From assembly GCF_035920445.1 (NCBI RefSeq), contig NZ_CP109162.1:2480001-2544000 (forward strand): a stretch of 64,000 nt of DNA. The letters are read 5' to 3'. The translations under genes and the position numbers were made by a program. The notes beneath the pieces were generated by a model. That model made no database searches. It was not told the origin of the DNA and was given only the letters and a program-made list of their open reading frames with translations. Positions 22,066-40,865 of the stretch are shown here, piece by piece (position 1 is the first letter of the stretch; the number at the start of each line of letters is the position of its first letter). Source of the stretch: Nocardia sp. NBC_01730 (lineage in GTDB: Bacteria > Actinomycetota > Actinomycetes > Mycobacteriales > Mycobacteriaceae).

Positions 22066-22977
22066 ATGCCGACGGGGCCTGTGCGATGTCGCCGATCGAT
22101 GCGGGCGATATTGCGGCACTTCAGTCGAGAGTGGTCGATATCGGGGTAATCACAAGTTGTTTGAATCGGGATGCGGTCAACAATTCGCGGTGGCCGGCGG
22201 TTCGCCATCGCGCTGACACTGACCTTTGACGCGAGCGATTGACTCGGCTACTACGGCGACTCCTTTAACCAAAGGGATGCGAACCCATTCGATAAATCGA
22301 AAGCCCTTTTCAGAACACATCCGAAGGTTGCGGAAGGACAATAATAATACGCAGCACACAACGCTGACGACAGAAGCAAGGAAACGCGATTCCGACACCA
22401 CGCACGAGCCGAAGCCAATACCTGCGGACAACACCCAGAAGAACGACCGCGCCATCATCGAATACGGACAATGATACACAACGTCAAGTAAGAGGCGCTT
22501 GGCCTGCACTTATGTCCGAACAGGACAGTTGAGCCACTAGGACTCGAACCTCGTGTCGCCCTTCCGAACAGCTGATGCCTCACCACCCGCCTCAACAGGC
22601 GGGCAAGCTCTCGACAAGCATTTCAGACCACTCAGGTGCACTTCACGACGCAACGACGAGTCATCCCATTACGCCGTCAATGCGCAAGTCGTGGCAGCAA
22701 CCGTCCTCGCCGTTTGCAGCTGACGGACCGACGGCCGATCGCGGGTATCAGGCGCGGAAACAAGGACATCGAGGTTTCGAGTCCGGGCGGATGATTTCAG
22801 AATCAAAACAGGGTAGCTATTCGGTTGCCCGATGCACCTCAGCGATCCACTTCTAGATGTCGAATATCACTTTCGTGAATGAGAAAATTCCCCGGCGAGA
22901 ATCGTGGATCGGGGTGTACACAAACGAACCAGTCGGCTTACACTGATCGTGGTCGGGTCTGGAGGCAAAGGCAAGTG
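22066..22977. other. Long gene-free, locally AT-rich region upstream of the NRPS
   Basis: About 900 bp without a convincing gene. The part 22240-22500 is markedly richer in A and T than the rest of the window and has short A and T runs. A perfect 7-bp stem with a 4-base loop (CCCGCCT/AGGCGGG, 22586-22603) lies in the middle. A tRNA T-arm-like string (GGTTCGAGTCC on the minus strand, near 22540-22550) lies close by but does not fold into a full tRNA. A minus-strand frame ending at 22177 could encode a small hydrophobic protein but lacks a ribosome site. No iron box was found before the NRPS. Confidence 0.5.
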
Positions 22978-25900
22978 ATGACCGTTCCGCGACCGCAGCT
23001 CCATCCCGATCGGGGGTTGGACGCCGCACCGGACGTGTCAGCAACACAGCCAGTGCCGCTGTCTGCCGGGCAGCGGGGGCTGTGGCTGGCACAGCAGTTT
23101 CGTCCGGACGTACCGATATGTGAGGCGCAGTACATCGAGTTGCGTGGGGATCTGGATGTCGATCTGCTGCGTAAGACGACGATTCAAGCAGGTCTCGAGT
23201 TCCAGTCGGGGTACTTGCGGCTGGTAGAGCTCGACGGTGAGCCGCACCAGTTGTTCGACCCGTCGCTGGAATCGGCGGGGCCAGTGATCGATATGCGTGC
23301 CGAACCCGATTCCATGGCGGCGGCCTTGCAGTGGATGCATCGGGAGTACACCGCACCGTTGAATATGACCCGGGACCGGTTGGTCGCATCGGCGATTGTG
23401 CAGGTCGGGGATCGGCATTTCCTGTTGTACAGCAGGATTCACCATGTCGCCTTGGACGGCTACGCCGCGATGACGATAGTGAATCGGATAGCCGCGCTGT
23501 ACACGGCTGCGGTGCAGGGGCGGACAGCAGAGCCGAGCCGGGCAGCGGACCTGCGCACTCTTTACGAGGCCGACCGCAGCTATCGGGAGTCGCAGCGGTT
23601 CACCAACGACAAGGCGTACTGGGTGAACAGGCTCACCGATCTCGGGGAAGAATCCAGCCTGGTCGCCGGGTACGCGCCCCCGCGTGCGGACAGCGTGGTC
23701 GCCATCGCCGAACTGTCGACGGTGACGGTAGGGCGGATCACTGATTCCGCGAAAGCGTTCGACGCGAGCCCGGCCGCGGTGGTGATCGCCGCATTCGGAT
23801 GCTATCTGGCGCGAATGACCGGCCGGGACGACGTCCTTGTCAATATTCCGATGTCTGGTCGCACCACCGCCGTACTGCGTCGGTCCGGAGGAGTGTTCGT
23901 CAATCTCGCGCCACTCCCGGTCGCGCTCGGTACCGGGGACACGGTCGCCACGCTGACGCGGCGCGTGCAGTCCGATCTGGTGGGCGCGTTGCGACACCAG
24001 CGATGCGACCTCACCGACATTCGCGCCGCCGCAGGAGGCAACGGCAACGGTCAGCGGCTTTTCGCAGGCCCGATGGTGAATGCCATGTTCTTCTCCCAGG
24101 AGATCCGGTTCGGGTCGATGACCGGAGAGTTCCATATCCTCAGCTCCGGGCCGGTCGAGGATTTGCTGGTGGACCTGTATCAGACCGGAGACCCGCCACG
24201 GACGATCCTCCACTTCATGGCCAATCCGACTCTCTATACCGGCCCCGAACTGTCTGCGCACCACACCAGATTCGTGGAATTCCTCGACGCGTTCGCCGCC
24301 GCACCGGGCACCGATCTCGGGCAGGTCCACCCCGACAGCGTCCGCGACGGCGCCCGGATCCGGCGCCGCCGCGAGAACCTGGCGTTCTGGCAGGCCACGC
24401 TCGCGGACCTTCCCGAAGAACTTCGTTTGCCGGTTGACCGGCCGCGGCCTGCCGTGGCGTCGAATCGGGGTGCCACCACCCATTACATGGTGGATGCTGA
24501 GTTGATCCGGGCGCTGGAAGGGTTCGCGCGGCAACATAATTCGTCACTGTTCATGGTGATCCACGGCACCCTGTCAGTCCTGCTCGCCCGGTTGAGCGGC
24601 ACCACCGACATCCCGATCGGCACACCGATCGCCGGGCGCGGCGCAGCCGCACTCGACGACACGATCGGCATGTTCGTCAACACTCTGGTGCTGCGAACCG
24701 ACATCGATCCCGACGAACCGTTCACCGACCTGCTCACCCGGATCAGACAGATCGACCTGGACGCCTTCGGACACGCTGACGTCCCGTTCGAACAACTGGT
24801 GGACCAACTCGCCCCGCAGCGGTCCCAGGCCCGCCACCCACTGTTCCAGGTGATGCTTGCATTCCAGAACCTGGAACCGGTGAAACTCGAACTACCCGGC
24901 CTCGACGTGTCGGTGCTCGATCTCCCCAACGAAGTGTCCCGCTTCGACCTACAGCTCATGCTGTCGGACAACCACGACAGCGGCGATATGACGGTAGCGG
25001 TCACCTACGCCACAGACCTGTTCGACGCCACGACAATCGACTCCCTCACACACCGGTGGATTCGGATACTCGAGTCGGTAGCCGCCGACCCAACACTTCC
25101 GGTCGGGACGATCGAGATACTCGAGCCCGCCGAACGAACCGATCTACTGACACGCGCAGGCCCACCCACAACAGTGCCGCCCACCACACTGGCCGACCTA
25201 CTGACCACAGCAGCCACACAGAACCCCGACGCCACCGCGATCGTCTTCGACACGCGACAACTGAGCTACCGAGAACTGGACGAACGTTCAAACCACTTGG
25301 CGCGCCTGCTCATCCAACGAGGCATCGGCCCGGAAGACGTCGTCGCCATCGCCATACCACGCTCCCCCGAGTCCGTACTCGCAGTATGGGCAGTCACCAA
25401 AACAGGAGCGGCTTTCCTGCCGATCGACCCGACCTACCCCACCGAACGCATCACCCACATCACGACCGACTCCACAACAGCCATCGGCCTGACCACCACC
25501 TCCCTACCCACACAGCTACCCGACACCATCAACTGGCTGACACTCGACAACCTCGACGAAGCCGACAACCGCCCGGTCACCGACCGTGACCGAGTACGCC
25601 CACTGCGGCCGCAACACCCGGCTTACCTGATCTATACCTCCGGCTCAACGGGTGTGCCGAAGGGCGTGACCGTGACGCACGCCGGGTTGGCCGCGCTCAG
25701 TTCCGAACAGCGGGAACGCTATGCGGTGACTGCGGTTTCGCGGGCCCTGCATTTCGCGTCGCCGAGCTTCGATGCCTCGGTCTGGGAGTTGCTGCTTGCG
25801 GTGGGTGCCTGCGCCACGATGGTGATCGTCGTGCCCGGCACCTACGGTGGCGCGGCGCTGGCCGAGTTGCTGCGCCGTGAGCGGGTGACCCATGCGGTGA

Positions 25901-28900
25901 TCACGCCGGCGGCGTTGACTTCGGTGGATCCGGTCGGGCTCGACAACTTGCGGGTCGTCGTTGCTGCCGGTGACGTTTGCCCGCCGGAACTGGTGCGGCG
26001 CTGGATGGCCGACGGTCGTGAGTTCTTTAATGCTTACGGCCCGACCGAGGCCACGATCATGGCCAACCAGAGCACTCCGTTGGCGGCGGGTGCGCTGGTC
26101 ACGATCGGTGGCCCGATTCGCGGTGTCTCGGAATGGGTATTGGATCAGCGGCTGCAACCCGTACCAGTCGGCGTGGCAGGTGAGTTGTATATCGCAGGTC
26201 CGCTACTGGCCCGCGGATACCATCACCGGGCGGGCCTGACGGCCGAGCGTTTTGTAGCGTGCCCTTGGATGCCCGGTGGGCGGATGTACCGTACCGGTGA
26301 CGTGGTCCGGTGGACAGCCGACGGAGCGGTCCAGCATCTCGGCCGTTCCGACTTCCAGGTGAAGATTCGTGGTCTTCGTATCGAACTCGGCGAGATCGAT
26401 ACGACACTCGCCACCCACGAGACTGTCGGTTTCGCCACCACCATCGGCCACCGCAACGGTTCCGGGACCGAGTCCCTGGTCTCGTATGTCGTTGCCGCGC
26501 CTGACCGCTCGATCGATACCACGACCCTGACCGAGCACCTCACCAACCGGTTACCGTCCTACATGGTCCCGTCCTCGATCATGGTGCTGGACCGCATCCC
26601 GTTGACACCGGTCGGCAAACTCGACCGCAAAGCACTACCGGATCCGATATTCACCGACAACAAGGCGTTCCGGGCACCCGAGACACCGATCGAACACATG
26701 ATCGCCACATCGTTCGCCGATGTATTAGGTATCGACACGGTCGGTCTCGACGATTCATTCTTCGCCCTCGGGGGCGACAGCTTGGGCGCGATCCGGGTTG
26801 CCGCGCGACTCGGGGCAGCGCTGGATACCGAGATTCCGGTCCAGCTGTTGTTCGAGGCACCCACGGTGGCGGAGATCGCGCCCCGTATTGAGCGGCATGC
26901 CGGTACGGGGCGGCGACGCCCACCCCTGATCGCCGGGCCCCGTCCCGATCTGGTGCCGTTGGCACCAGCCCAGCAGCGGATGTGGTTCTTCAACCAGTAC
27001 GACACCAGTTCCGGGGCATACAATATTCCGATCGCCATCCGGCTACGTGGCGAGTTGAACGTCGACGCCGTGCGATCGGCCATGGTTGACGTGCTGCGCA
27101 GACACGAGTCTTTACGAACGCGGTACCCGGATCATGACGGGACGCTGATCCAGCTGATCGAACCCGCCGACGACATAGACCACGACCTGACCCCGGTACC
27201 GGTTCCGCCGAGCCAGTTGGTCGCAATGTTGACCGAATTCGTCACCGCAGGCTTCGATGTGAGCACCGAGGTTCCGGTGCGTGCTCGGTTGTTCCGCGTT
27301 ACCGGCGGCGAGGAACCTGAATACGTGTTGGCCCTGGTGGTGCACCACATCGCCGCGGACGGCTTCTCCATGACTCCGCTGGCCCGCGACGTGACGACTG
27401 CGTACGCCACACGGATCTGCGGAGAAGTCCCGTCGTGGACGCCGCTACCTGTCCAGTACGCGGACTACGCACTGTGGCAACAAGCTGCCCTCGGCTCGCC
27501 CGACGATCCGGAATCGCTGTGCGCCCGGCAGATCCGATATTGGACCGAGACTCTGGACGGAGTTGCCGAAGAACTTCGTTTGCCGGTTGACCGGCCGCGG
27601 CCTGCCGTGGCGTCGAATCGGGGTGCCACCACCCATTACATGGTGGATGCTGAGTTGATCCGGGCGCTGGAAGGGTTCGCGCGGCAACATAATTCGTCAC
27701 TGTTCATGGTGATCCACGGCACCCTGTCAGTCCTGCTCGCCCGGTTGAGCGGCACCACCGACATCCCGATCGGCACACCGATCGCCGGGCGCGGCGCAGC
27801 CGCACTCGACGACACGATCGGCATGTTCGTCAACACTCTGGTGCTGCGAACCGACATCGATCCCGACGAACCGTTCACCGACCTGCTCACCCGGATCAGA
27901 CAGATCGACCTGGACGCCTTCGGACACGCTGACGTCCCGTTCGAACAACTGGTGGACCAACTCGCCCCGCAGCGGTCCCAGGCCCGCCACCCACTGTTCC
28001 AGGTGATGCTTGCATTCCAGAACCTGGAACCGGTGAAACTCGAACTACCCGGCCTCGACGTGTCGGTGCTCGATCTCCCCAACGAAGTGTCCCGCTTCGA
28101 CCTACAGCTCATGCTGTCGGACAACCACGACAGCGGCGATATGACGGTAGCGGTCACCTACGCCACAGACCTGTTCGACGCCACGACAATCGACTCCCTC
28201 ACACACCGGTGGATTCGGATACTCGAGTCGGTAGCCGCCGACCCAACACTTCCGGTCGGGACGATCGAGATACTCGAGCCCGCCGAACGAACCGATCTAC
28301 TGACACGCGCAGGCCCACCCACAACAGTGCCGCCCACCACACTGGCCGACCTACTGACCACAGCAGCCACACAGAACCCCGACGCCACCGCGATCGTCTT
28401 CGACACGCGACAACTGAGCTACCGAGAACTGGACGAACGTTCAAACCACTTGGCGCGCCTGCTCATCCAACGAGGCATCGGCCCGGAAGACGTCGTCGCC
28501 ATCGCCATACCACGCTCCCCCGAGTCCGTACTCGCAGTATGGGCAGTCACCAAAACAGGAGCGGCTTTCCTGCCGATCGACCCGACCTACCCCACCGAAC
28601 GCATCACCCACATCACGACCGACTCCACAACAGCCATCGGCCTGACCACCACCTCCCTACCCACACAGCTACCCGACACCATCAACTGGCTGACACTCGA
28701 CAACCTCGACGAAGCCGACAACCGCCCGGTCACCGACCGTGACCGAGTACGCCCGCTGCGCATCGACGACATCGCCTACGTCATCTACACCTCCGGCTCG
28801 ACCGGGCTACCCAAGGGCGTCGCGGTCACCCACCGCGGACTCTGCAACTGCGCCACCGAGCAACGGATTGCCATGCGCATCGAATCTGATTCTCGTACTT

Positions 28901-31900
28901 TGCATTCAGCTTCGCCGAGCTTCGACGTGTCGGTACTGGAATTGCTGTCGGCGCTGTCCGCGGGCGCGACCATGGTCATCGCACCCAGCGACGTCTACGG
29001 CGGCGACGAACTCGGCGAATTGCTCGACCGCGAGCAGGTCAGCCACGTCTTCATCACACCTGCCGCGTTGTCCACCATCGACCATGCCCGTTGGCCGCTA
29101 CCGGATTTGGGATATTTGGTAATCGGTGGCGAGGACTACAGCACCGAGCTGGTCGAGCGCTGGAGCGGCGGCCCCGACATATTCAACGAGTATGGCCCGA
29201 CCGAGGCCACGATCATGGCCAACCAGAGCACTCCGTTGGTGGCGGGTGCGCTGGTCACGATCGGTGGCCCGATTCGCGGTGTCTCGGAATGGGTGCTGGA
29301 TCAACGGCTGCAACCCGTACCAGTCGGCGTCGCAGGTGAGTTGTACATCGCGGGCCCCCTACTCGCCCGCGGATACCACCACCGGCCAGGCCCGACCGCC
29401 GAGCGATTCACAGCATGCCCCTGGATACCAGGAGCACGCATGTACCGCACCGGGGACATGGTCCGATGGACAACCGACGGAACGATCCAACATCTCGGCC
29501 GATCCGACTTCCAGGTCAAGATTCGTGGCCTCCGCATCGAACTCGGCGAGATCGATGCCACCCTCGCCACCCACGAGACCGTCGGTTTCGCCACCACCAT
29601 CGGCCACCACAACGACTCCGGCGCCCAGTCGCTGGTCTCGTATGTCGTTGCCGCACCCGGCAGCTCGATCGACACCACAACCCTGACCGAACACCTCACC
29701 GACCGGCTACCGTCCTACATGGTCCCCTCCTCGATCATGGTGCTGGACCGCATCCCACTGACACCGGTCGGCAAACTCGACCGCAAAGCACTACCAGAGC
29801 CGATATTCACCGACAACAAACCCTTCCGAGCACCCACGACACCGATCGAACACACCATCGCCACATCATTCGCCGACGTATTAGGTATCGACACAGTCGG
29901 TCTCGACGACTCGTTCTTCGCCCTCGGGGGCGACAGCATCATGTCGATCCAGTTGGTGACTCGGGCCAGGGCGGCGGGGGTGGTGTTCTCGGCGCGCGAG
30001 GTGTTCGAACGCAAAACGGTTGCCGGGCTGACCCAGATCGCCGTCTACGACGACAGCGCCGCGGCGACCTCCCTTCTCCCGGAACTGCCTGGCGGGGGTG
30101 TGGGGCCGATACCGCTGACCCCGATCATGCGATGGCTGCTCGAGCGGGCGGAGTCGGGGGTCGGCCGCTTCTCGCAGGCAGTGCTGCTCGGTCTACCTGC
30201 GGGGATCGACCAGCAGACACTGGCGGGCACGGTGCAGGCAGTGCTCGATCGGCACGACATGCTGCGCGCGCGGCTGCGCCCGGCCGCCGATGGGAGCTGG
30301 ACGTGGGAGGTCCTGCCGGTCGGGGCGATTCGAGCCGACGACGTCATCCACCGGGTGGCGATGGCGGGGAAGCCGGGAAGCGTCGAGTTCCGTGCGTCAG
30401 CCGCGGCAGAGTTGGATGCCGCCGCTGACCGTCTCGATCCGGGCGCCGGGATCGTGGTGCAGGCGGTCTGGTTCGACCCGCAAGACGCGGCGGAGCCGGG
30501 CAGGGTGCTGATGCTGGTGCACCATACGGCGATCGACGGGGTGTCCTGGCGGGTGCTGGTTCCGGACCTCGCGTCCGCTTGGGCGCGGATCGAGTCCGGC
30601 CAGCCACCCGATCTGGCCCCGGTCGGGACATCGATGCGCAGGTGGGCGCACGGGCTGGTCGAGGCTGCCCAACGCCAGGAGCGGGCCGCCGAGCTCGACT
30701 TGTGGCAAGCGATGGCCATCGCGGGCGATCCGGTAATCGGGTCGCGGCCACTCGACCCCGCGATCGACGTGGCTGCCACCACCCGCACGGTCGAGGTCGA
30801 AGTGTCCCCCGAGGTGACCGAGGCGCTGCTGACGACAGTTCCCGAGGTGTTCCACGGCAGTGTGGGCGATGGACTGCTGGCCGCGCTGGCGGTGGCGGTG
30901 ACGAAGTGGCAGCGCGAGCATGCGACGGAGGCCTCCCGCGGCCCTCTCACGGACGTGGTGATCGGTCTCGAAGGGCACGGCCGTGAGGAAGGCGCCGTCC
31001 CGGGCTCGGATCTGACCCGGACAGTCGGCTGGTTCTCCACGAGTTCTCCGATACGCCTTGATCTGTCGGGCATCGATCTCGACGACGCGTGCGCGGGTGG
31101 GCCTGCTATCGGGGTAGCGGTCAAGTCCGTCAAGGAACAACTCCTCGCAGTCCCGGACCATGGGATCGGCTACGGCTTGCTGCGGTATCTCAACGAGGAC
31201 ACCGGACCGATACTCGGGACTCTTCCGACGCCGCAGATCGGGTTCAACTACCTCGGTCGCGTCTCCACGGGGATTCCCGAAGGGATGCCGGCGGTCGGAT
31301 GGATGCCGGTGGACGACGATGGTGACCTCTCTGGTGTCGAGTTCGCCGGTGCGCGGAATCCGGATATGCCGGTGTCGGCGGCGCTCGACATCAATGCCCT
31401 CACCCGCGACGACGGGGGCCTGCCGCGGTTGCGGGCGATCTGGTCGTATCCCGCTGGGGTGCTCACCGCCGACGAGGTGCGCGCGGTGGCGGAGTCGTGG
31501 TGCCGGGTATTGACCGCGTTGGCGACCCATGCGCGCCGTACCGGGGCGGGGGGACGTACGCCGTCGGATCTGGATCTGGTCAGCCTCGAGCAGTCCGAGA
31601 TCGAGCGCTTGGAGGACAGGTATCCGGCGTTGAGCGACGTCTGGCCATTGACTCCGTTGCAGCAGGGGTTGCTGTTCCATGCGCTGGTGGCCGAGGAGTC
31701 GGTGGATGCCTATCTGGTTCAGCTGGTCCTCGAGCTGCGTGGACAGGTAGATCCGAAGCGGCTGCGCCGAGCCGGGCAGATGCTTCTCAACCGCCATGCG
31801 AATCTGCGCGCCGCGTTCGTCACCGAGGCCGGACCGGTTCAGGTGGTCTGTGAAGACCTCGACGCGCCATGGTCGGAGCTCGATCTGTCCGGGCTGGATG

Positions 31901-34900
31901 CGGGTGCACGGAATGGCGAGTGGGATCGACTGATGGCCACGGACCGCACGACCCGGTTCGACCCGGCTCGTGCCCCGCTGCTGCGCTGGATGCTGGTCAC
32001 CATGGGGCCGGAGCACTACCGGCTGGTGCTGACCAATCATCATCTGCTGCTGGACGGCTGGTCGACGCCGCTGCTGGTGAAGGAGTTGCTGGTGCTCTAT
32101 GCCACCGACGGCGACGCCTCGATGCTGCCTCGTGTCCGTCCCTATCGGGACTTCTTGGCGTGGATCGCCGGGCAGGACCCGGCTGCGTCGCTGGCGGCCT
32201 GGGCCCGCGCGTTCGACGGCGCCGACGAGCCGACCGTGGTGGCTCCGGCGGATCCCCGCCGCCGATACACCGAATCACGTGATGTGTTCGGCGAACTGAC
32301 CGAGGAACAGACCGCGGCCCTGACAGACCTCGCACGGGCACGCGGAGTCACCCTCAACACCGTGATCCAGATGGCATGGGCGATCGTGCTGGGCACGTTG
32401 ACATCCAGGGAGGACGTCACGTTCGGGGCAATGGTCTCCGGGCGGCCCCCGCAGATCGCGGGCATCGAATCGATGATCGGGCTGTTCGTCAACACGCTGC
32501 CGGTGCGCGTCCGTCTCGACACGACCGAGAGTCTGGGGCAGCTCGTCGACCGGATCCAGGCAGAGCAGGCCGCGCTGCTCGATTGCCACTACGTGGGTCT
32601 GACCGACATCGAGCGTGCGGCCGGGCCGGGGACGGTGTTCGACACGATGACGGTGTTCGAGTCCTATCCGGTCGATCGTGGTGGACTGACCGCGGACACC
32701 GATATCGCCGGCATGCGGGTGGTCGACGTGACCGGCACCGACGCCGCGCACTACCCGCTGGGAGTGGTCGCGCATGTCGACACGCGACTGCACCTCACAA
32801 TCAAGTACCTGCCCGAACTCTTCGACCACGACACGATGGATGCGACCCTGTATCGGGTCCTGCACGTGCTCAGCGCCGTTGCCGCCGACCCTGATCTACC
32901 GCTGGCCCGACTGGATCTGCTCTCGCCCGCGGAATACCAGGAGTTGACGCCGGTATCGGGTGATCCGGCAGTGCCGGGGCGGGTGTTGCCCGAGTTGTTG
33001 GCGGCGACGGTGGCGAAAGATCCTGGTTCGGTCGCGGTGGTGTGCGGGGACCGCCGGTGGACGTACGGCGAGCTGGATGCGGAGTCGAATCGGTTGGCAC
33101 GCGTGTTGATCGGTCGGGGCGTGGGGCCGGAAGCTGGTGTCGCGGTGGGGTTGCCGCGGTCGGTCGAGTCGGTGCTGGCGGTATGGGCGGTGGCGAAGTC
33201 GGGGGCAGCGTTCGTGCCGGTGGACCCCAAGTACCCGGCCGGCCGCGTCGCGCACATGCTCGACGATTCGGGTGTGGCGGTGGGAATCACACTGTCGGAG
33301 TGGCGCGATCGGCTCCCAGGGTCGGTGCAGTGGTTGCTCCTCGACGAGTCGGCGGTCGAAGCGGAGGTTGCGGGGTCGCCGGCGGTGCCGGTGACCGATG
33401 CGGAGCGAACACTGCCGGTGCGGGGCGACCATGTGGCGTACGTGATCTACACGTCCGGGTCGACGGGTGTGCCGAAGGGGGTGATGGTTTCGCATCAGGG
33501 GTTGGCGAATCTGGTGGCCGAACAATGTTCGCGGTTCGGCATCGGGCCGGGCGCGCGGGTGCTGCATGTCGCGTCTCCTAGTTTCGATGCGGCGGTCCTG
33601 GAATATCTCTGGGCGTTCGCGACGGGTGGGCAGCTGGTGATTGCGCCGCCGACCGTCTACGGCGGGATCGAGCTGGCACAGATCCTGTTGCGGGAGAAGG
33701 TGTCTCATGCCGCGATGACGCCCGCGGCCTTGGCGACGGTCGATCCGGCCGGGCTCAGGGACCTCGGGACCGTCGTGGTCGGCGGCGAGGCGCCCCCACC
33801 GGAATTGGTGTCGCGGTGGGCGCCGGGCCGGAGATTGTTCAACACCTACGGCCCCGCCGAGGCCACGATCCAGACCGATGCCGGTGCACCGATGGTGGCA
33901 GGTGAGGCGGTGGTGACCGGTAGCCCGCTCCGCGGGGTCGCGCAGGTCGTGCTCGACGCGCGGCTGCGACCGGTGCCGGTCGGAGTCGTGGGCGAGTTGT
34001 ATCTTGCGGGTCCGGGTCTGGCCCGTGGGTACCGCAACCGGGTGGGTTTGACGGCGTCGCGGTTCGTCGCCGATCCGTTCGCTGGGCCGGGGCAGCGGAT
34101 GTATCGGACCGGGGACCTGGTGCGGTGGCTGCGGTTATCGGAGGGGGGATTAACGCTCGACTATGTGGGCCGGACGGATTTCCAGGTGAAGATTCGTGGT
34201 TTCCGTATCGAGCTCGGCGAGGTCGAATCGACCCTGCTGGCCTGTGCAGGTGTGGCGCGTGCGGTGGCGACCGTGCACCGGGGTGTGACCACCGGCAACC
34301 GGTTGATCGGGTACGTGGTGCCCGAGTCCGGTGCGGACCTCGACACAGCCGCGGTCCTCGCGTTCGCCGGGGAGCGGTTGGCCCCGCACATGGTGCCCGC
34401 GACCGTGGTGGTGCTCGACGCGCTGCCGGTGACGGCAAACGGCAAGCTCGACCGCAGCGCGCTACCCGAGCCGGACTTCACCGCGCGCACCGAATCCCGG
34501 GCACCGGCCACCGAGATGGAGACGGTGCTGGCGAAACTGTTCGCGGAGGTGCTTGGACTCGACCAGGTGGGGGCGGAGGATTCGTTCTTCGCGCTCGGCG
34601 GTGACAGCATCATGTCGATCCAGCTGGTGACTCGGGCCAGGGCGGCGGGGGTGGTGTTCTCCACACGCGACGTGTTCGACCGCAAAACGGTCGCCGGGCT
34701 GGCACAGATCGCCGTCCGCGACAGCACCGCGGCAACCACCTTGCCGACGGAACTGCCGGGCGGGGGCGTTGGGCCGATACCGGTGACCCCGATCATGTGT
34801 TGGATGTTCGAGCGCGGCGGCTTCGACCGTTTCTGCCAGTGGGTCATGCTCACTCTGCCGACCGGCATCGACACGACCGGGATCAGTGCGACCGTCCAAG

Positions 34901-37900
34901 CGGTGATCGATCACCACGACATGCTGCGGGCCCGACTACACCCGGAACCCACGCACAGGTCGGGCTGGGCACTCCAGGTACAGCCGACCGCGGGATCCGC
35001 CGCCGGACTGATCCGGCGCGTGCCGGTGGACGCGGCACCGGACAGCGACGCCTTCGCCGCGATCGCCGACGCCGAGGCGAACGCGGCCGCCGAGCGCCTC
35101 GACCCCGCCGCGGGAGTCATGCTGCAACTGGTCTGGTTCGACTGGCCCGGACAGCAGGGAAGGTTGCTCGTCGTCGCGCATCACTTGGTAATCGACGGCG
35201 TGTCGTGGCGGATCCTTGTTCCCGACCTCGCTGCCGCATGGGCCCAGGTGAGTGCCGGCCAACGGCCGCGGCTCGCGCGTGTCGGTACCTCGATGCGACG
35301 CTGGGCGCATGCTCTGAACACCGCCGCGGGGAACCTCGACGAACTCGACTGGTGGCGGTCCACGCTCAGCGCTGCCGATCCACCGATCGGTGCCCGCCCG
35401 GTCGACCCAGCCGTGGACGTGCAGGCTACCGTCGCCAGTGTCGAGGTGACGCTGCCTACCACGGTGACCCAGGCCGTACTGACCACCCTGCCCCGGGCGT
35501 TCCACGGCAACGTGGACGACGCCCTCATCGCTGGGCTCGCCCTGGCGCTGACTCGGTGGCGGCGCCGCCACGGCCACACCGTTGATGAGACGCTGCTCAC
35601 CCTCGAAAGCCACGGCCGCCACGACACGGTGCTGCCCGGTGCCGACCTCACCCGCACCGTCGGATGGTTCACCACCACCTACCCGGTCCGGCTCGACCTG
35701 GCCGACATCGACATCGACGACGCGTTCGCCGCCGGGGCTGCCGCCGGAGCGGTCATCAAATCGGTCAAGGAACAACTCCGACAGGTCCCCGGCAATGGGA
35801 TCGGCTATGGGTTGCTGCGGTACCTCGACGCCGATACCGCCCGCATTCTGGGTGCGTTGCCCGCTCCTCAGGTGAGCTTCAACTATCTCGGCCGGTTCGA
35901 CACCATTCCGGAAGCGTTGCGCGACAGCGGGTGGATGCCCGCCGGCGGCGACACCAGCGGCGGCGGTGTGCAGAACCCCGACGCGTCCGTAGCAGCCCTG
36001 CTCGGCGTCAACGCGGTCACCATGGACACATCGGACGGGCCTACCCTTACCGCCGCCTGGGATTACCCGACCGGTCTGCTCACCTCCGCCGAGGTCACCG
36101 AGCTCGCGGAACTGTGGCGCGACGCCGTGACGGCTCTGGCCGCCCACGCGTCCCGGCCCGGTATCGGCGGGCTGACTCCCTCCGACGTCGGCCTCGTCGA
36201 CCTCGACCAGGACACGATCGACCGGCTCGAGACCCGACACCCGACACTCGACGACATCTGGCCGCTCACGCCGCTGCAGAAGGGATTGCTATTCCACGCC
36301 CAGCTCGCCGACGGCACCCTTGATGCCTACATCGTGCAACTCTGTATGGAACTCGGCGGGCGCGTCGACGCGGACCGGCTGCGCCGCGCCGCGCAGACAC
36401 TCGTCGGACGGCACCCGAACCTGCGGACCGCGTTCGTGCGCGACGGCGCCAGCGCAGCGGTCCAGGTGGTGCACCAGCGCGTCGAGGTGCCGTTCACCCG
36501 GATCGACCTGGCCGAGTGCGTCGACACCGCGGCCACGCTCGAACAGCTCATGGACACCGACCGCCGCACCCGCTTCGACGTGACCGCGGCGCCGCTGCTG
36601 CGACTGACGCTGATCAGCACCGCCCCCCAGCGGCACCGACTGCTGTTGAGCATGCATCACATCCTGATAGACGGCTGGTCCACGCCACTGCTGATCCGGG
36701 AACTGCTGACCCTCTACGCCTGCGACAGCGACCCCACGGCACTAGCCCCGGTGCGTCCCTACCGCGACTACCTGACGTGGCTGGACAGCCAGGACCAGGA
36801 TGCGGCGGAGGCGTCATGGGCACGGACACTCGAGGGCACAGCGGAGCCGACTCTGCTGGCGCCCGCGGACCGCGGCCGCCAGCAAACCACCGCCGCGCGC
36901 GAAGTCCGGGTGCGGTTGAGCGAACACCGCACCGCGGCCCTTGTCACGGTGGCCCACCAGCAAGAGACCACCCTCAACACCCTCATCCAAGCCGCCTGGG
37001 CGATCGTGCTCGCCACTGTGACCGCCCGCGAGGACGTAGTTTTCGGCACCACCGTCTCCGGGCGCCCCCCACAGATCTCCGGCATCGAATCGATGATCGG
37101 GCTGTTCGTCAACACCGTGCCTGTGCGGGTCCGGCTCGACCACCGCGAAAGCCTCGCCCAACTGCTACGGCGAATCCACACCGAGCAAGCCACGCTGCTC
37201 GACTATCACCACCTGGGACTCGCCCGCATCCAACAGATGGCCGGTCCGGGCGCGATGTTCGACACCGTGACGGTCTTCGAGTCCTACCCGATCGACTCGA
37301 CGGGGCTGTCCGAAGACACCGACATCGCAGGAATGCATGTCCTCGACGTGCACGGCCGTGACGCCGCGCACTATCCGCTCGGCCTGGTCATCCAGCACGA
37401 CACCCGACTGCACCTGACTTTCAAATACCTGCCCGAACTGTTCACACGGCACCAGATCGACGCCATTGCCGACCGAGTGCGGCGCGTGCTCGACACCATC
37501 GTCGAAGACATCGACCTGCCCCTCAACCGACTACAGCTGCTATCGCCGGTCGAGCGAGCAGCGCTGGTACCCGTGCACGGTCCTCCCGGCGAGGCGATGT
37601 CGGTGTTGCCGCAGGTGTTGACGGCCGCGATGACGCTGGACACCGAAGCGGTGGTATGCAGCGGCACACGACTGTCCTACCGCGAACTCGAGGAAACCTC
37701 GAACCGGTGGGCGCGGGTATTGATCAATGCCGGGATAGGACCGGAATCGTTCGTGGCCGTGGCGTTGCCGCGCTCCATCGAGGCCATGATCGCCGTATGG
37801 GCGGTCGCCAAGACCGGCGGCGCGTTCGTTCAAATCGACCCCGCCCATCCGCACGACCGGATCACCAGCATTCTGACCGATTCCGGTGCCGCCGTCGGGC

Positions 37901-40194
37901 TGACACTGGGGGCCCACCGAGACCAGCTACCGGACACCGCCAGATGGCTCGTCCTCGACGACCCCTCCTTCGCCGCGGCGACAGCGTCGGCGTCCCCTGC
38001 CGCGGTCACCGACGCCGAACGCACAACCACGCTGCGACCGCAGCACCCGGCGTACCTGATCTACACCTCGGGCTCCACCGGGACCCCGAAAGGGGTCGTG
38101 GTCACCCACACCGGGATAGCGAACCTGGCCGCCGACATACGGGAACGGTTCGGCCTCACCCCGACCTCCCGAATGCTGGCGGCTGCCGCACCGAGCTTCG
38201 ACGTCTCGATCCTCGAATGGCTCAGCGCCGCCGCCGCCGGAGCCACCCTGGTTCTCGCCCCTCCACCAGTAGTCGGCGGCCCCGAACTGGCCGGGGTGAT
38301 CAACACCGAACGCGTCACCCATGCCGCGATGACCCCGACAGTGCTCGCATCGATGCACCCCGACGGACTCGTCGACACCCTCGGCACCCTGGTCCTCGGC
38401 GGCGAGACATGCCCACCAGACCTGGCAGCACAGTGGGCACCGGGCCGCACAGTGATCAGCTGCTACGGGGCTACCGAAACCACGATCACGAGCTGCGCGG
38501 ACACTCCCTCGACCACGATCACAGACAGCCCGATGGCAATCGGGGGCCCGGTCCGCGGATTCACCGCCGTCGTACTCGACCGCAGACTGCGCCCCGTCCC
38601 ACCCGGAGTAGTGGGCGAACTGTATCTGTCCGGACCAGGCCTGGCCCGCGGCTACCACAAGCAACCCGTGACGACAGCAGCCCGATTCGTCCCCGACCCG
38701 TACGGGCCGGCCGGAACACGGATGTATCGCACCGGCGACTTGGTCGCCTGGACCGCCGACCGAACACTGCACTACAAAGGCCGCAGTGACCGACAACTCG
38801 AGATCCAGGGCAACCGCGTCGAACCCGGCGAGATCGAAGCCACGCTACGCAGCTACCCGGACGTCACCCACGCAGCCGTCACAGTCCACACCCGACCCAA
38901 TGGAATCAACCAACTCACCGGCTACGTCGTACCCACCCCCGACACCACACCCGACACCACCGCACTGATCACCCACCTCGCAACCCGACTACCCGCCCAC
39001 ATGATCCCGTCCTCGATCATGGTGCTGGACCGAATCCCTCGCACCGCCACCGGCAAACTCGACTACAAAGCCCTACCCCCACCCGACCGGCGTCCCGCCC
39101 GCTTCCGGGCACCGTCCACGCCACTCGAGGCCACCGTCTGCGACGCCTTCACCCAGACCCTCGACATCGATCGTGCCGGTGTCGACGACGGCTTCTTCAC
39201 TCTCGGCGGCAACTCGCTGGCTGCCACCCAACTGGTGGCGCGGCTGGCGGAGTCGACCGGTGTCGACGTGCCGCTTCCGTGGATCTTCACCGACCCGACA
39301 CCGCAGTCGCTGGCCCGCCGCATCGACACCCGACTCCGCGGCCTCGATGAGCAGGACCCCGATGACGCACTCTCGGTCATGCTCCCGCTGCGCGCTGCCG
39401 GAACCGGCCCGCCACTGTTCTGCGTCCATCCAGCCATCGGATTGGCTTGGGGTTTCAGCGGACTCGTGCAGCACCTCGACCCCGACCGTCCCGTCCACGG
39501 GCTGCAATCCCCTGCGCTGACCGACCCCACCGCACGGTTCGACACGCTCGACCAACTCGCCGCCCGCTACGTCCGGGAGATCCGGTCCGTCCAGCCGCAC
39601 GGCCCTTACCATTTGCTCGGCTACTCGCTCGGCGGCACCATCGCCCACGCGATCGCCGTCCAACTCCGCAGCGAAGGCGACCCTGTCGCCACCCTGGCCA
39701 TGATGGACACCCGCGTCGTCACCGCCCGCAGCGTCCGCGCTCCCACGCCGACCATCGCGGACGTGCTCGCCGAGTTCGGCGGCCTCGCCGTTCCGCAGGA
39801 CCCCGCCGACCTCACCATGGAGACCGTTGCCGAGTTACTGCACCGGCAAGGCGGACTCTTCACCGCCGTGACCCCCGAACATCTCGTGATCCTGCAGGAC
39901 GACTACACCCGGCTCGTCGACCTCACCTGGAACCACCGGCCGGCATCCTTCGACGGTGACCTGATCTACTTCAGCGCCACCACCGGCCACGCAGACGACG
40001 GCGCCTCTCCCGCTCTGGCATGGAACGACCACGTCACCGGCCGCATCACCGAACACCACATTCCCACCCGGCACGAACGGATGACCGACCCCGACGCACT
40101 CCGCGCCATCGGACACGTTCTCACCGAGCACTTCCGCGACACCCTCACCCCCGCACCGGAGCCCCCCACCTCAGCAAGGACAAGCCGATCATGA
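22978..40194 (+). CDS. Four-module nonribosomal peptide synthetase with starter C and TE
   Basis: 5,738 residues; the GTG just before the ATG is an alternative start behind GGAGG. Domains by residue: EntF-like starter C (~25-450, HHVALDG 155-161); an extra C-terminal half of a condensation domain (~462-710); A1 (~730-1235); T1 (Ser1268); C2 (~1325-1760, HHIAADG 1456); A2 (~1780-2290); T2 (Ser2320); E1 (HHTAIDG 2515); C3 (HHLLLDG 3021); A3 (~3325-3835); T3 (Ser3877); E2 (HHLVIDG 4068); C4 (HHILIDG 4560); A4 (~4870-5370); T4 (GGNS, Ser5413); TE (GYSLGG, Ser5550). All core motifs look intact. Predicted product: an N-capped tetrapeptide with residues 2 and 3 epimerised to D, released by TE. Hand-read pocket residues (positions 235-331, GrsA numbering) are A1 DAWVVAAIM, A2 DVLFVGEIM, A3 DALAVGTIQ, A4 DVLAVGCIT; all begin with Asp, so alpha-amino acids are expected. 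I cannot assign substrates. No MbtH gene or regulator is adjacent. Confidence 0.95.
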   Translation: MTVPRPQLHPDRGLDAAPDVSATQPVPLSAGQRGLWLAQQFRPDVPICEAQYIELRGDLDVDLLRKTTIQAGLEFQSGYLRLVELDGEPHQLFDPSLESAGPVIDMRAEPDSMAAALQWMHREYTAPLNMTRDRLVASAIVQVGDRHFLLYSRIHHVALDGYAAMTIVNRIAALYTAAVQGRTAEPSRAADLRTLYEADRSYRESQRFTNDKAYWVNRLTDLGEESSLVAGYAPPRADSVVAIAELSTVTVGRITDSAKAFDASPAAVVIAAFGCYLARMTGRDDVLVNIPMSGRTTAVLRRSGGVFVNLAPLPVALGTGDTVATLTRRVQSDLVGALRHQRCDLTDIRAAAGGNGNGQRLFAGPMVNAMFFSQEIRFGSMTGEFHILSSGPVEDLLVDLYQTGDPPRTILHFMANPTLYTGPELSAHHTRFVEFLDAFAAAPGTDLGQVHPDSVRDGARIRRRRENLAFWQATLADLPEELRLPVDRPRPAVASNRGATTHYMVDAELIRALEGFARQHNSSLFMVIHGTLSVLLARLSGTTDIPIGTPIAGRGAAALDDTIGMFVNTLVLRTDIDPDEPFTDLLTRIRQIDLDAFGHADVPFEQLVDQLAPQRSQARHPLFQVMLAFQNLEPVKLELPGLDVSVLDLPNEVSRFDLQLMLSDNHDSGDMTVAVTYATDLFDATTIDSLTHRWIRILESVAADPTLPVGTIEILEPAERTDLLTRAGPPTTVPPTTLADLLTTAATQNPDATAIVFDTRQLSYRELDERSNHLARLLIQRGIGPEDVVAIAIPRSPESVLAVWAVTKTGAAFLPIDPTYPTERITHITTDSTTAIGLTTTSLPTQLPDTINWLTLDNLDEADNRPVTDRDRVRPLRPQHPAYLIYTSGSTGVPKGVTVTHAGLAALSSEQRERYAVTAVSRALHFASPSFDASVWELLLAVGACATMVIVVPGTYGGAALAELLRRERVTHAVITPAALTSVDPVGLDNLRVVVAAGDVCPPELVRRWMADGREFFNAYGPTEATIMANQSTPLAAGALVTIGGPIRGVSEWVLDQRLQPVPVGVAGELYIAGPLLARGYHHRAGLTAERFVACPWMPGGRMYRTGDVVRWTADGAVQHLGRSDFQVKIRGLRIELGEIDTTLATHETVGFATTIGHRNGSGTESLVSYVVAAPDRSIDTTTLTEHLTNRLPSYMVPSSIMVLDRIPLTPVGKLDRKALPDPIFTDNKAFRAPETPIEHMIATSFADVLGIDTVGLDDSFFALGGDSLGAIRVAARLGAALDTEIPVQLLFEAPTVAEIAPRIERHAGTGRRRPPLIAGPRPDLVPLAPAQQRMWFFNQYDTSSGAYNIPIAIRLRGELNVDAVRSAMVDVLRRHESLRTRYPDHDGTLIQLIEPADDIDHDLTPVPVPPSQLVAMLTEFVTAGFDVSTEVPVRARLFRVTGGEEPEYVLALVVHHIAADGFSMTPLARDVTTAYATRICGEVPSWTPLPVQYADYALWQQAALGSPDDPESLCARQIRYWTETLDGVAEELRLPVDRPRPAVASNRGATTHYMVDAELIRALEGFARQHNSSLFMVIHGTLSVLLARLSGTTDIPIGTPIAGRGAAALDDTIGMFVNTLVLRTDIDPDEPFTDLLTRIRQIDLDAFGHADVPFEQLVDQLAPQRSQARHPLFQVMLAFQNLEPVKLELPGLDVSVLDLPNEVSRFDLQLMLSDNHDSGDMTVAVTYATDLFDATTIDSLTHRWIRILESVAADPTLPVGTIEILEPAERTDLLTRAGPPTTVPPTTLADLLTTAATQNPDATAIVFDTRQLSYRELDERSNHLARLLIQRGIGPEDVVAIAIPRSPESVLAVWAVTKTGAAFLPIDPTYPTERITHITTDSTTAIGLTTTSLPTQLPDTINWLTLDNLDEADNRPVTDRDRVRPLRIDDIAYVIYTSGSTGLPKGVAVTHRGLCNCATEQRIAMRIESDSRTLHSASPSFDVSVLELLSALSAGATMVIAPSDVYGGDELGELLDREQVSHVFITPAALSTIDHARWPLPDLGYLVIGGEDYSTELVERWSGGPDIFNEYGPTEATIMANQSTPLVAGALVTIGGPIRGVSEWVLDQRLQPVPVGVAGELYIAGPLLARGYHHRPGPTAERFTACPWIPGARMYRTGDMVRWTTDGTIQHLGRSDFQVKIRGLRIELGEIDATLATHETVGFATTIGHHNDSGAQSLVSYVVAAPGSSIDTTTLTEHLTDRLPSYMVPSSIMVLDRIPLTPVGKLDRKALPEPIFTDNKPFRAPTTPIEHTIATSFADVLGIDTVGLDDSFFALGGDSIMSIQLVTRARAAGVVFSAREVFERKTVAGLTQIAVYDDSAAATSLLPELPGGGVGPIPLTPIMRWLLERAESGVGRFSQAVLLGLPAGIDQQTLAGTVQAVLDRHDMLRARLRPAADGSWTWEVLPVGAIRADDVIHRVAMAGKPGSVEFRASAAAELDAAADRLDPGAGIVVQAVWFDPQDAAEPGRVLMLVHHTAIDGVSWRVLVPDLASAWARIESGQPPDLAPVGTSMRRWAHGLVEAAQRQERAAELDLWQAMAIAGDPVIGSRPLDPAIDVAATTRTVEVEVSPEVTEALLTTVPEVFHGSVGDGLLAALAVAVTKWQREHATEASRGPLTDVVIGLEGHGREEGAVPGSDLTRTVGWFSTSSPIRLDLSGIDLDDACAGGPAIGVAVKSVKEQLLAVPDHGIGYGLLRYLNEDTGPILGTLPTPQIGFNYLGRVSTGIPEGMPAVGWMPVDDDGDLSGVEFAGARNPDMPVSAALDINALTRDDGGLPRLRAIWSYPAGVLTADEVRAVAESWCRVLTALATHARRTGAGGRTPSDLDLVSLEQSEIERLEDRYPALSDVWPLTPLQQGLLFHALVAEESVDAYLVQLVLELRGQVDPKRLRRAGQMLLNRHANLRAAFVTEAGPVQVVCEDLDAPWSELDLSGLDAGARNGEWDRLMATDRTTRFDPARAPLLRWMLVTMGPEHYRLVLTNHHLLLDGWSTPLLVKELLVLYATDGDASMLPRVRPYRDFLAWIAGQDPAASLAAWARAFDGADEPTVVAPADPRRRYTESRDVFGELTEEQTAALTDLARARGVTLNTVIQMAWAIVLGTLTSREDVTFGAMVSGRPPQIAGIESMIGLFVNTLPVRVRLDTTESLGQLVDRIQAEQAALLDCHYVGLTDIERAAGPGTVFDTMTVFESYPVDRGGLTADTDIAGMRVVDVTGTDAAHYPLGVVAHVDTRLHLTIKYLPELFDHDTMDATLYRVLHVLSAVAADPDLPLARLDLLSPAEYQELTPVSGDPAVPGRVLPELLAATVAKDPGSVAVVCGDRRWTYGELDAESNRLARVLIGRGVGPEAGVAVGLPRSVESVLAVWAVAKSGAAFVPVDPKYPAGRVAHMLDDSGVAVGITLSEWRDRLPGSVQWLLLDESAVEAEVAGSPAVPVTDAERTLPVRGDHVAYVIYTSGSTGVPKGVMVSHQGLANLVAEQCSRFGIGPGARVLHVASPSFDAAVLEYLWAFATGGQLVIAPPTVYGGIELAQILLREKVSHAAMTPAALATVDPAGLRDLGTVVVGGEAPPPELVSRWAPGRRLFNTYGPAEATIQTDAGAPMVAGEAVVTGSPLRGVAQVVLDARLRPVPVGVVGELYLAGPGLARGYRNRVGLTASRFVADPFAGPGQRMYRTGDLVRWLRLSEGGLTLDYVGRTDFQVKIRGFRIELGEVESTLLACAGVARAVATVHRGVTTGNRLIGYVVPESGADLDTAAVLAFAGERLAPHMVPATVVVLDALPVTANGKLDRSALPEPDFTARTESRAPATEMETVLAKLFAEVLGLDQVGAEDSFFALGGDSIMSIQLVTRARAAGVVFSTRDVFDRKTVAGLAQIAVRDSTAATTLPTELPGGGVGPIPVTPIMCWMFERGGFDRFCQWVMLTLPTGIDTTGISATVQAVIDHHDMLRARLHPEPTHRSGWALQVQPTAGSAAGLIRRVPVDAAPDSDAFAAIADAEANAAAERLDPAAGVMLQLVWFDWPGQQGRLLVVAHHLVIDGVSWRILVPDLAAAWAQVSAGQRPRLARVGTSMRRWAHALNTAAGNLDELDWWRSTLSAADPPIGARPVDPAVDVQATVASVEVTLPTTVTQAVLTTLPRAFHGNVDDALIAGLALALTRWRRRHGHTVDETLLTLESHGRHDTVLPGADLTRTVGWFTTTYPVRLDLADIDIDDAFAAGAAAGAVIKSVKEQLRQVPGNGIGYGLLRYLDADTARILGALPAPQVSFNYLGRFDTIPEALRDSGWMPAGGDTSGGGVQNPDASVAALLGVNAVTMDTSDGPTLTAAWDYPTGLLTSAEVTELAELWRDAVTALAAHASRPGIGGLTPSDVGLVDLDQDTIDRLETRHPTLDDIWPLTPLQKGLLFHAQLADGTLDAYIVQLCMELGGRVDADRLRRAAQTLVGRHPNLRTAFVRDGASAAVQVVHQRVEVPFTRIDLAECVDTAATLEQLMDTDRRTRFDVTAAPLLRLTLISTAPQRHRLLLSMHHILIDGWSTPLLIRELLTLYACDSDPTALAPVRPYRDYLTWLDSQDQDAAEASWARTLEGTAEPTLLAPADRGRQQTTAAREVRVRLSEHRTAALVTVAHQQETTLNTLIQAAWAIVLATVTAREDVVFGTTVSGRPPQISGIESMIGLFVNTVPVRVRLDHRESLAQLLRRIHTEQATLLDYHHLGLARIQQMAGPGAMFDTVTVFESYPIDSTGLSEDTDIAGMHVLDVHGRDAAHYPLGLVIQHDTRLHLTFKYLPELFTRHQIDAIADRVRRVLDTIVEDIDLPLNRLQLLSPVERAALVPVHGPPGEAMSVLPQVLTAAMTLDTEAVVCSGTRLSYRELEETSNRWARVLINAGIGPESFVAVALPRSIEAMIAVWAVAKTGGAFVQIDPAHPHDRITSILTDSGAAVGLTLGAHRDQLPDTARWLVLDDPSFAAATASASPAAVTDAERTTTLRPQHPAYLIYTSGSTGTPKGVVVTHTGIANLAADIRERFGLTPTSRMLAAAAPSFDVSILEWLSAAAAGATLVLAPPPVVGGPELAGVINTERVTHAAMTPTVLASMHPDGLVDTLGTLVLGGETCPPDLAAQWAPGRTVISCYGATETTITSCADTPSTTITDSPMAIGGPVRGFTAVVLDRRLRPVPPGVVGELYLSGPGLARGYHKQPVTTAARFVPDPYGPAGTRMYRTGDLVAWTADRTLHYKGRSDRQLEIQGNRVEPGEIEATLRSYPDVTHAAVTVHTRPNGINQLTGYVVPTPDTTPDTTALITHLATRLPAHMIPSSIMVLDRIPRTATGKLDYKALPPPDRRPARFRAPSTPLEATVCDAFTQTLDIDRAGVDDGFFTLGGNSLAATQLVARLAESTGVDVPLPWIFTDPTPQSLARRIDTRLRGLDEQDPDDALSVMLPLRAAGTGPPLFCVHPAIGLAWGFSGLVQHLDPDRPVHGLQSPALTDPTARFDTLDQLAARYVREIRSVQPHGPYHLLGYSLGGTIAHAIAVQLRSEGDPVATLAMMDTRVVTARSVRAPTPTIADVLAEFGGLAVPQDPADLTMETVAELLHRQGGLFTAVTPEHLVILQDDYTRLVDLTWNHRPASFDGDLIYFSATTGHADDGASPALAWNDHVTGRITEHHIPTRHERMTDPDALRAIGHVLTEHFRDTLTPAPEPPTSARTSRS
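24413..25601 (+). repeat. 1,189-bp direct repeat, copy 1 (half C + A1 N-terminus)
   Basis: This block, from the EELRLPVD segment of the half-condensation domain to just before the A1 core A3 motif, matches 27566-28754 base for base wherever I compared, at a constant offset of 3,153 bp. Even third-codon positions agree, which means very recent duplication or gene conversion. Identity ends abruptly at 25602. Confidence 0.93.
27566..28754 (+). repeat. 1,189-bp direct repeat, copy 2 (C2 second half + A2 N-terminus)
   Basis: Second copy of the 24413-25601 block, here forming the C-terminal half of the complete C2 domain and the first part of A2. The upstream sequence (the N-lobe with HHIAADG) has no counterpart in module 1. 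Confidence 0.93.
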
Positions 40195-40865
40195 ACACCG
40201 ACCGAATCGTCGGGACACGCTCGGGCGTCGAGCCAGCCAACCTATTCGACCCCGACCCGGCAACTCGTATCGCCGCGCACCCCCATGCTGCCGAACTACG
40301 CCGGTGGACTCGCGAATACCTCTGCCGACCCCACCCGGATCTCGGCCGACGCGGCCCTGTCTGCCCCTACACCAGCCACGCCATCGCAGGCCGATACCTG
40401 TGGGCCGCATTCTTCGATGGTCGCGACATCGACGCTCGGCGCATCACCGCAATCGTCGACGACGTGTACGACCTGTTCCCCGCCCTGCCACCCCGTGACC
40501 CACCCGATTCTCTGTTCAAGGCCGTCCTCGCGGTCTTTCCCGACCTCACCGAATACGCCGATATCGACACTGTTCAACATGACCAGAAAACCCGGTTCGT
40601 CGACAAAGGACTGATGCTCGGCCAGTTCTATCCGGGTTGCACCACTCCCGGACTGCACAACCCGGCATTCCCGGCACTCGACGCGCCTCTGCCTATCCTT
40701 GCCGTACGCCACATGGCCCCCACCGACTTCCCATTCCTCAAATCTCGCCACGAATGGATCGACACCTACTTCAAAATCTTTGCCCCCACGATCCCCGGGT
40801 TCATCACCACAGCCATGTCCGACAGACTCGTACAAACGCCCGACGCCCCGGAAGGATCTCCTTGA
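40191..40865 (+). CDS. NRPS-coupled protein of unknown function (DUF6875-like)
   Basis: A 224-residue protein whose ATG overlaps the NRPS stop codon (ATGA), with AAGGA ten bases upstream. It is therefore translated together with the synthetase. It has no signal peptide or membrane segment. Noticeable parts are CRPHPDLGRRGPVCPYT near residue 45, FPDLTEYADIDTVQHDQK, GLMLGQFYPGC and PLPILAVRHMAPTDFPFL. From memory this resembles a domain catalogued as DUF6875 that occurs beside actinobacterial biosynthetic genes; I am not certain. The paired Cys/His (CRPHP, VCPY) could bind a metal. A tailoring or accessory role for the NRPS product is inferred from coupling. Confidence 0.7.
   Translation: MNTDRIVGTRSGVEPANLFDPDPATRIAAHPHAAELRRWTREYLCRPHPDLGRRGPVCPYTSHAIAGRYLWAAFFDGRDIDARRITAIVDDVYDLFPALPPRDPPDSLFKAVLAVFPDLTEYADIDTVQHDQKTRFVDKGLMLGQFYPGCTTPGLHNPAFPALDAPLPILAVRHMAPTDFPFLKSRHEWIDTYFKIFAPTIPGFITTAMSDRLVQTPDAPEGSP

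Follow-up and report, generated by a model that had tools for sequence, protein, structure and literature searches.

Recent homogenisation of flanking sequence around an old pocket difference as the probable history of two modules of a Nocardia nonribosomal peptide synthetase

Introduction

Nocardia sp. NBC_01730 carries a gene for a four-module nonribosomal peptide synthetase (NRPS) at 22879..40194 of the window analysed here, by which we mean the whole stretch of 64,000 nucleotides (RefSeq assembly GCF_035920445.1, contig NZ_CP109162.1, positions 2,480,001 to 2,544,000); coordinates are those of the window, and the NRPS gene and its parts are on the + strand. The adenylation (A) domains of its first two modules are embedded in sequence that is identical on one side and similar on the other, and between these flanks the substrate pocket differs strongly. 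Was one pocket replaced in an otherwise intact duplicate, as a sequence-only reading of this DNA had proposed, or were the flanks made alike around pockets that already differed? We consider the second answer highly probable: recent flank homogenisation around an old pocket difference would explain the exact identity of 1,189 bp better than pocket replacement does.

Both processes are of a kind already known, namely concerted evolution and A-core subdomain exchange. Concerted evolution of NRPS and polyketide synthase (PKS) domains by internal recombination has been described, with diverged parts escaping in a model (Medema et al., 2014; PMC4256081). Recombination is reported to target mostly the A-core, with the linker and A-sub kept, and to be a main route of nonribosomal peptide diversification (Baunach et al., 2021; PMC8097286), and an intragenomic A-domain exchange was demonstrated with biochemical proof for wollamide/desotamide (Booth et al., 2022; PMC9205934). 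These statements, and the comparisons made below, refer to the accessible text of the papers. Among the matches listed on assembly-line recombination and on Nocardia lipopeptide NRPSs, from a coverage outside which most subscription journals lie, no publication was recognised as describing this Nocardia NRPS.

Similarity profile of modules 1 and 2

Modules 1 and 2 match exactly over 1,189 bp (24413-25601 = 27566-28754, offset 3153), the length given by the sequence-only reading. Copy 1 of this homogenised tract (24413..25601) covers a half condensation (C) lobe, the C-A linker and A1 to just before motif A3, and copy 2 (27566..28754) covers the C-terminal lobe of C2, the linker and A2 to the same point. 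Beyond the tract, 25602-26037 and 28755-29193 show 48-72% identity per 50-nt bin, and the encoded segments are identical at 77 of 147 aligned positions (about 52-53%). This island starts about 10 codons ahead of the A3 motif and ends at the A5 core, and its description as a strongly different A3-A5 pocket holds; the per-bin identities exclude gradual divergence across the A domain. The upstream repeat does not start in the A domain: its beginning lies in the C-terminal lobe of a condensation domain.

The A1 pocket (25602..26037), of a type that we call alpha, has the code DAWVVAAIM, falls in the alpha clade described below and is nearest to the module 1 pocket of L041 (92%). The A2 pocket (28755..29193), of type beta, has the code DVLFVGEIM, falls in the beta clade and reaches its highest identity, 86%, with module 1 of L044 and module 2 of L043. 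The residue positions behind these codes are presumably those of GrsA, and the beta code is that of the sequence-only reading, re-read from the sequence; of the codes taken from alignment columns only the alpha rows were used, the beta rows being shifted at two positions and those of modules 3 and 4 perhaps shifted too. The two pockets presumably select different amino acids.

Similarity between the modules resumes at 26038/29194 (offset 3156), where near-identity had been noted. The resumption is there, and the level is 88.8%, clearly below the 100% upstream: 84 differences in 753 bp, falling in 48 synonymous and 25 non-synonymous codons. The downstream shared flank runs from A5 into part of T1 in copy 1 (26038..26790) and of T2 in copy 2 (29194..29946), T being the carrier domain, and stops near 26790 within it, past which only background identity is found. 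If 84 differences were scattered by chance over the 1,942 bases of both flanks, the probability of none falling on the 1,189-bp side would be ~1e-36.

Two pocket types in a gene family

The starter C domain of the gene was searched in 150 genomes of the genus, with about 10 candidates scored per genome, and at least 40 places in 34 genomes, the window included, matched with E below 1e-140. The strong matches listed have 71-100% identity, and the next ones listed have 43-48%. We read 34 of the 40 listed places (the window, its paralogue and 32 others), leaving out two in genome G107 and one each in G105, G007, G026 and G015, some of which were seen in short pieces. Both modules were typed in 30 of them; L068 and L069 are without module 2, and L071 and L072 are cut by contig ends. 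L070, which contains only part of module 2, was typed from the first 31 residues of that pocket and left out of the module 1/2 trees. L061 and L067 are each split in two reading frames of about half length and were counted once. A search of a plasmid collection gave 430 records with a match, the best of the 20 listed being Nocardia farcinica NZ_LN868939.1 (94% query cover, 68.9%).

In all 27 members profiled, of which one, L070, ends inside module 2, modules 1 and 2 share one duplicated unit, which starts in the C-terminal lobe of the C domain and extends as far as the T domain. Its left border lies at about the same place as in the window, within some 20 codons, and the right border is alike. 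Because the left border of the repeat is family-wide, it is not special to the window strain.

Pockets of the alpha pattern (HPAYLIYTSG...FDASVWELL) and the beta pattern (DIAYVIYTSG...FDVSVLELL) occupy the two modules in three arrangements. With module 1 named first, the 30 genes, window and paralogue included, comprise 16 alpha-beta (the window among them), 11 beta-beta and 3 alpha-alpha genes, the last including the second NRPS copy of this genome, ~1.7 Mb distant. The pocket tree separates an alpha clade of 22 rows (19 from module 1, 3 from module 2; support 100/99) from a beta clade of 36 rows (26 from module 2, 10 from module 1; support 100/100). When the window is compared with the other 15 genes of the alpha-beta arrangement, its A1 pocket is 78-92% identical to module 1 and 53-59% to module 2, and its A2 pocket is 71-84% identical to module 2 and 57-61% to module 1. 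Forcing the two pockets of the window together was rejected in an approximately unbiased (AU) test (p = 1e-50). The flanks do not follow the pocket types: forcing the alpha-bearing modules together was rejected for the upstream flank (p = 2e-6, the identical pair of the window left free) and for the downstream flank (p = 1e-63).

Reference trees from outside modules 1 and 2, two in number and both unrooted, gave 4 changes of the module 1 allele and one of the module 2 allele. A starter-C protein tree rooted with three Rhodococcus genes placed alpha at module 1 and beta at module 2 at the root, with 5 and 1 changes, and we infer that alpha-beta was the ancestral state. The pockets of the three Rhodococcus outgroup genes by themselves gave no decision on whether module 1 was ancestrally alpha or beta.

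These results bear on the possibility that one module was duplicated to make the other and that one pocket was then replaced in this lineage. Identical flanks around a sharply bounded different pocket are what such an event would leave, and alpha is indeed nearer another NRPS than beta. Each pocket, however, has its orthologues in the corresponding module of 15 other alpha-beta genes, every member profiled has the unit that modules 1 and 2 share, the tract starts at about the family-wide border, and alpha-beta genes in other species would have had to originate independently. Since the A1 and A2 pockets are orthologous to those of other alpha-beta genes and alpha-beta appears to be ancestral, no pocket would have been replaced recently here; the pocket difference appears to be old and common to related species. 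The sequence-only reading took the pattern as the signature of a pocket replaced in an otherwise intact duplicate. That reading is right only in part, and this side of it is not supported: pocket clades and pocket orthology lead us to reject a fresh swap in this strain, and we regard a recent replacement in its lineage as very improbable.

Homogenisation of the flanks

It is the flanks of the window, and not the pocket, that depart from orthology. The 1,189-bp tract is 100% identical between the window's own modules, whereas in 28 other genes no module exceeds 82% identity to it. The two modules of one gene pair as sisters in 4 of 29 genes for the upstream flank, in 6 of 29 for the downstream flank (the window weakly, 87/41) and in 2 of 29, L043 and L048, for the pocket; the trees of flanks and pocket are discordant. 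Copies within one gene are thus more alike than orthologous copies for the tract, and only partly so family-wide, as is expected of concerted evolution by intragenic recombination.

A pattern like that of the window is seen, apparently independently, in L046: its modules 1 and 2 are mostly 73-100% identical in the upstream flank, 47-67% in the pocket and 80-97% downstream. In L043, complete identity of the two modules starts shortly ahead of A3 and continues across most of the pocket, so that here the pocket itself was copied. Judged by rounded identities, the tract of the window is nearer module 2 in 25 of 28 other genes, nearer module 1 in 2 and tied in 1, which hints that module 2 may have been the donor.

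Perfect identity of two copies invites the question whether they differ in the real genome and were collapsed in assembly or polishing. Besides the 1,189 bp, a second perfect tract, of 1,764 bp, is shared with a distant paralogue, as such an artefact could produce. The copies nevertheless lie 3.15 kb apart within a single contig of 8.68 Mb, which is the whole genome, the tract ends coincide with biological homology borders, and strong flank homogenisation recurs in L046 and L043, which are independent assemblies. An artefact of this kind seems to us very improbable.

Origin of the two pockets

If neither pocket is new, how did they come to differ? Outside the family, the alpha pocket is matched best in its own genome at 72%, by a pair of NRPS domains located near 6.79 and 6.80 Mb. 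Among the 99 own-genome matches of alpha, beta ranks no higher than 33rd, at 53%. The best own-genome match of beta besides itself is at 60%, in an NRPS just past the right end of the window, and alpha is the 23rd of 97. The flanks of modules 1 and 2 are equally far from the alpha-like domain (49% upstream, 63-64% downstream) and 90-100% identical to each other. This reversal of identity between pocket and flanks holds against L099-L101 and is found again in L049, L055 and L065. Separate searches with the islands had been proposed, and in the own genome their closest relatives do differ from those of their flanks; shared relatives, which would have refuted the swap idea, were thus not seen.

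Because alpha is nearer an outside NRPS (72%) than beta (53%) and the flanks are reversed, an ancient pocket exchange is favoured; we consider it likely as the origin of alpha and beta, although the tree tests do not prove it. The island sits on the specificity pocket with the linker, A-sub and T flanks kept, which is the layout of an A-core subdomain exchange; on the window's own recent lineage no such exchange appears to have happened.

The duplicated pockets may instead have diverged in the ordinary way without any exchange of subdomains, selection for unlike substrates having protected them from conversion; alpha and beta would then go back to one origin. Such a break-out route has been described (Medema et al., 2014; PMC4256081), and AU tests that forced all module 1 and 2 pockets into one clade failed to reject it (p = 0.36, and p = 0.10 with 8 outside domains included). 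What tells against it is the reversal itself, since an unrelated NRPS pocket of the same genome is closer to alpha than beta is while the upstream A flanks of both modules stand at the same distance from that domain, together with its recurrence in three other genes and the low mutual ranks of the two pockets. We think ordinary divergence alone unlikely, and an ancient exchange remains our preferred origin.

Other exchanges and gene architecture

A pocket replacement of the kind first suspected in modules 1 and 2 is visible in module 3. There, five genes (L045, L046, L039, L057 and L060) have a pocket of another type, and the three pairs profiled (L045 and L046 against usual genes) show 45-75% identity from ~60 codons before A3 to ~155 after it, in flanks of 73-96%. 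The flanks stay with other module 3 copies, and this case is a replacement between orthologous modules, which is what a true swap looks like. In L068 and L069 (3105 and 3171 aa), module 1 is joined to module 3 at about the A3 motif, with module 2 missing.

The module 4 region of the window NRPS contains an exact run of 1,764 bp (37510..39273) in common with the second NRPS copy of this genome (L098), ~1.7 Mb away, and a second exact tract of 226 bp is found at 39526-39751; outside these tracts the window NRPS and L098 are mostly 75-92% identical, and parts of modules 1 to 3 fall to 57-75%. In L090 (Rhodococcus sp. IEGM 1381), the A3-A5 protein segments of the first A domain (residue 858 of the open reading frame, ORF) and the third (residue 3008) are identical, and L090 appears to be an independent case of copying between modules. 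Equal-score A-domain matches occur among other NRPS genes of the genome, e.g., 6787385/6799909, 3892761/3900813 and 6790556/6803080/6806284, which suggests recent copying between other modules of this genome too; the pair at 6787385 and 6799909 is identical in the pocket.

The four-module NRPS (5771 aa) was delimited by its ORF, by the Pfam families Condensation, AMP-binding, PP-binding and Thioesterase, and by the positions of the HHxxxDG and A3 motifs. Its domain order is starter C, half C, A1-T, C-A2-T-E, C-A3-T-E, C-A4-T-TE, where E is the presumed epimerisation domain and TE the thioesterase; the domain names, including the assignment of E, follow motif positions and the customary domain order. 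The predicted product is an acyl-tetrapeptide. The N-terminal C domain (23050..24318) covers nearly the full profile (4-441 of 456 of PF00668) and is presumed to be a starter domain from its N-terminal place. It is followed by the half C domain of module 1 (24367..25149), which has the C-terminal lobe only (profile 191-456 of 456 of PF00668) and is without the HHxxxDG lobe. The spacing from HHxxxDG to A3 is alike in family members and the three Rhodococcus genes. Directly 3' of the NRPS lies a gene for a DUF6875 protein (40191-40865).

The tract also recalls GRINS, which Nivina and colleagues reportedly presented in 2021 as skewed repeats linked to gene conversion in PKSs. It is alike in being a repeat of about 1 kb, over 80% identical, with mean absolute GC and TA skews of 0.225 and 0.207; of all 1,189-bp stretches in the window, 2.2% have skews as high as these. 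Under criteria taken from the accessible text of PMC9899208 and PMC10394414, both window copies pass a 0.15 skew rule (identity being counted per BLAST piece and the passing stretch including the pocket). It is unlike GRINS in that both skews are below 0.25, the 25% figure of PMC10394414, and in that the gene is an NRPS and not an assembly-line PKS. In a scan of 32 family genes, the 0.15 rule holds for 2, and we set GRINS aside as the main explanation because the other 30 fail the combined repeat-plus-skew rule.

Discussion

We propose the following course of events for modules 1 and 2. The modules share a duplicated unit that starts in the C-terminal lobe of the C domain and extends as far as the T domain, and alpha and beta would be old alleles that were in the two modules before the sampled Nocardia genes diverged. 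As each pocket has a different nearest outside relative, an ancient A-subdomain exchange probably brought in at least one of them. Recently, in the Nocardia lineage of the window, the upstream part of the unit would have been made identical, most simply by intragenic gene conversion, perhaps of module 2 onto module 1. The left end of the conversion tract would be the start of homology and its right end the point where the pockets are too different to pair; because pairing fails there, no exact cut would be needed for the tract to end at the A3 edge. Copying in other species would have included the pocket, giving beta-beta and alpha-alpha enzymes.

Several points weigh against this account. Conversion, a double crossover and a second, recent duplication of the upstream part would all leave the same identity, so that conversion and its direction are our interpretation, and the closeness of the tract to module 2 could reflect faster evolution of module 1. 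Each tree behind the ancestral states was built on one gene, and the outgroups, three genes of Rhodococcus, share no more than 49-52% identity with the window in the starter C domain. Of 29 genes, only L043 and L048 show directly that a pocket was copied within the gene; in the other beta-beta genes and the three alpha-alpha genes, the pocket does not pair with that of the gene's own other module, and the module 2 alpha pockets of the alpha-alpha genes group with module 1 of the window, L041, L045 and L046. These cases may go back to copying at an earlier time, or to exchange from one gene or species to another. A genome that holds both an exact 1,189-bp repeat and an exact 1,764-bp tract also raises the thought of an assembly fault, to which, as said, we give very little weight. 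Homogenisation of the flanks around older pockets is still the reading that we hold with good confidence.

How does this compare with known systems? As in the work of Medema et al. (2014; PMC4256081), modules of one gene exceed orthologous modules in likeness, and duplicates are trapped in homogenisation while functionally diverged parts are protected; here, the protected part would be a 145-residue pocket inside a homogenised A domain, typed in 30 related genes. The unit lies inside the A-core with the C-A linker, A-sub and T interface kept, which reminds us of Baunach et al. (2021; PMC8097286); in their cases the A-core itself recombines, whereas the recent event in the window would have spared the pocket and replaced the upstream flank. 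As with Booth et al. (2022; PMC9205934), an internal A-domain segment has closest relatives unlike those of its flanks, with a candidate donor in the same genome; their segment, from A2 to A5/A6, turned a copy of an ornithine module to glycine and was biochemically tested, whereas the exchange in Nocardia would be ancient and is known from sequence alone.

The case carries a warning, since near-identical flanks around a different pocket are readily taken for a swap and can equally be made by flank copying around an old pocket; only with orthologues can one decide between them. The family is also a resource: in 30 genes, two pocket types occupy two slots in three arrangements, and the module 3 pocket replacement (five genes) and the module 1-3 fusion (two genes) stand beside them. 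The exchange borders, mapped to within about 20 codons, show natural joints of A domains and bear on the making of working NRPS chimeras.

More tentatively, and with somewhat less than even confidence, we suggest that modules 1 and 2 may be two slots for two ancient pocket cassettes. Conversion would keep the flanks interchangeable, and pockets would be copied from slot to slot (module 1 from alpha to beta about four or five times, module 2 from beta to alpha once), with conversion starting or stopping at natural borders formed by the conserved motifs A3 and A5, and selection may keep both cassettes circulating across the genus.

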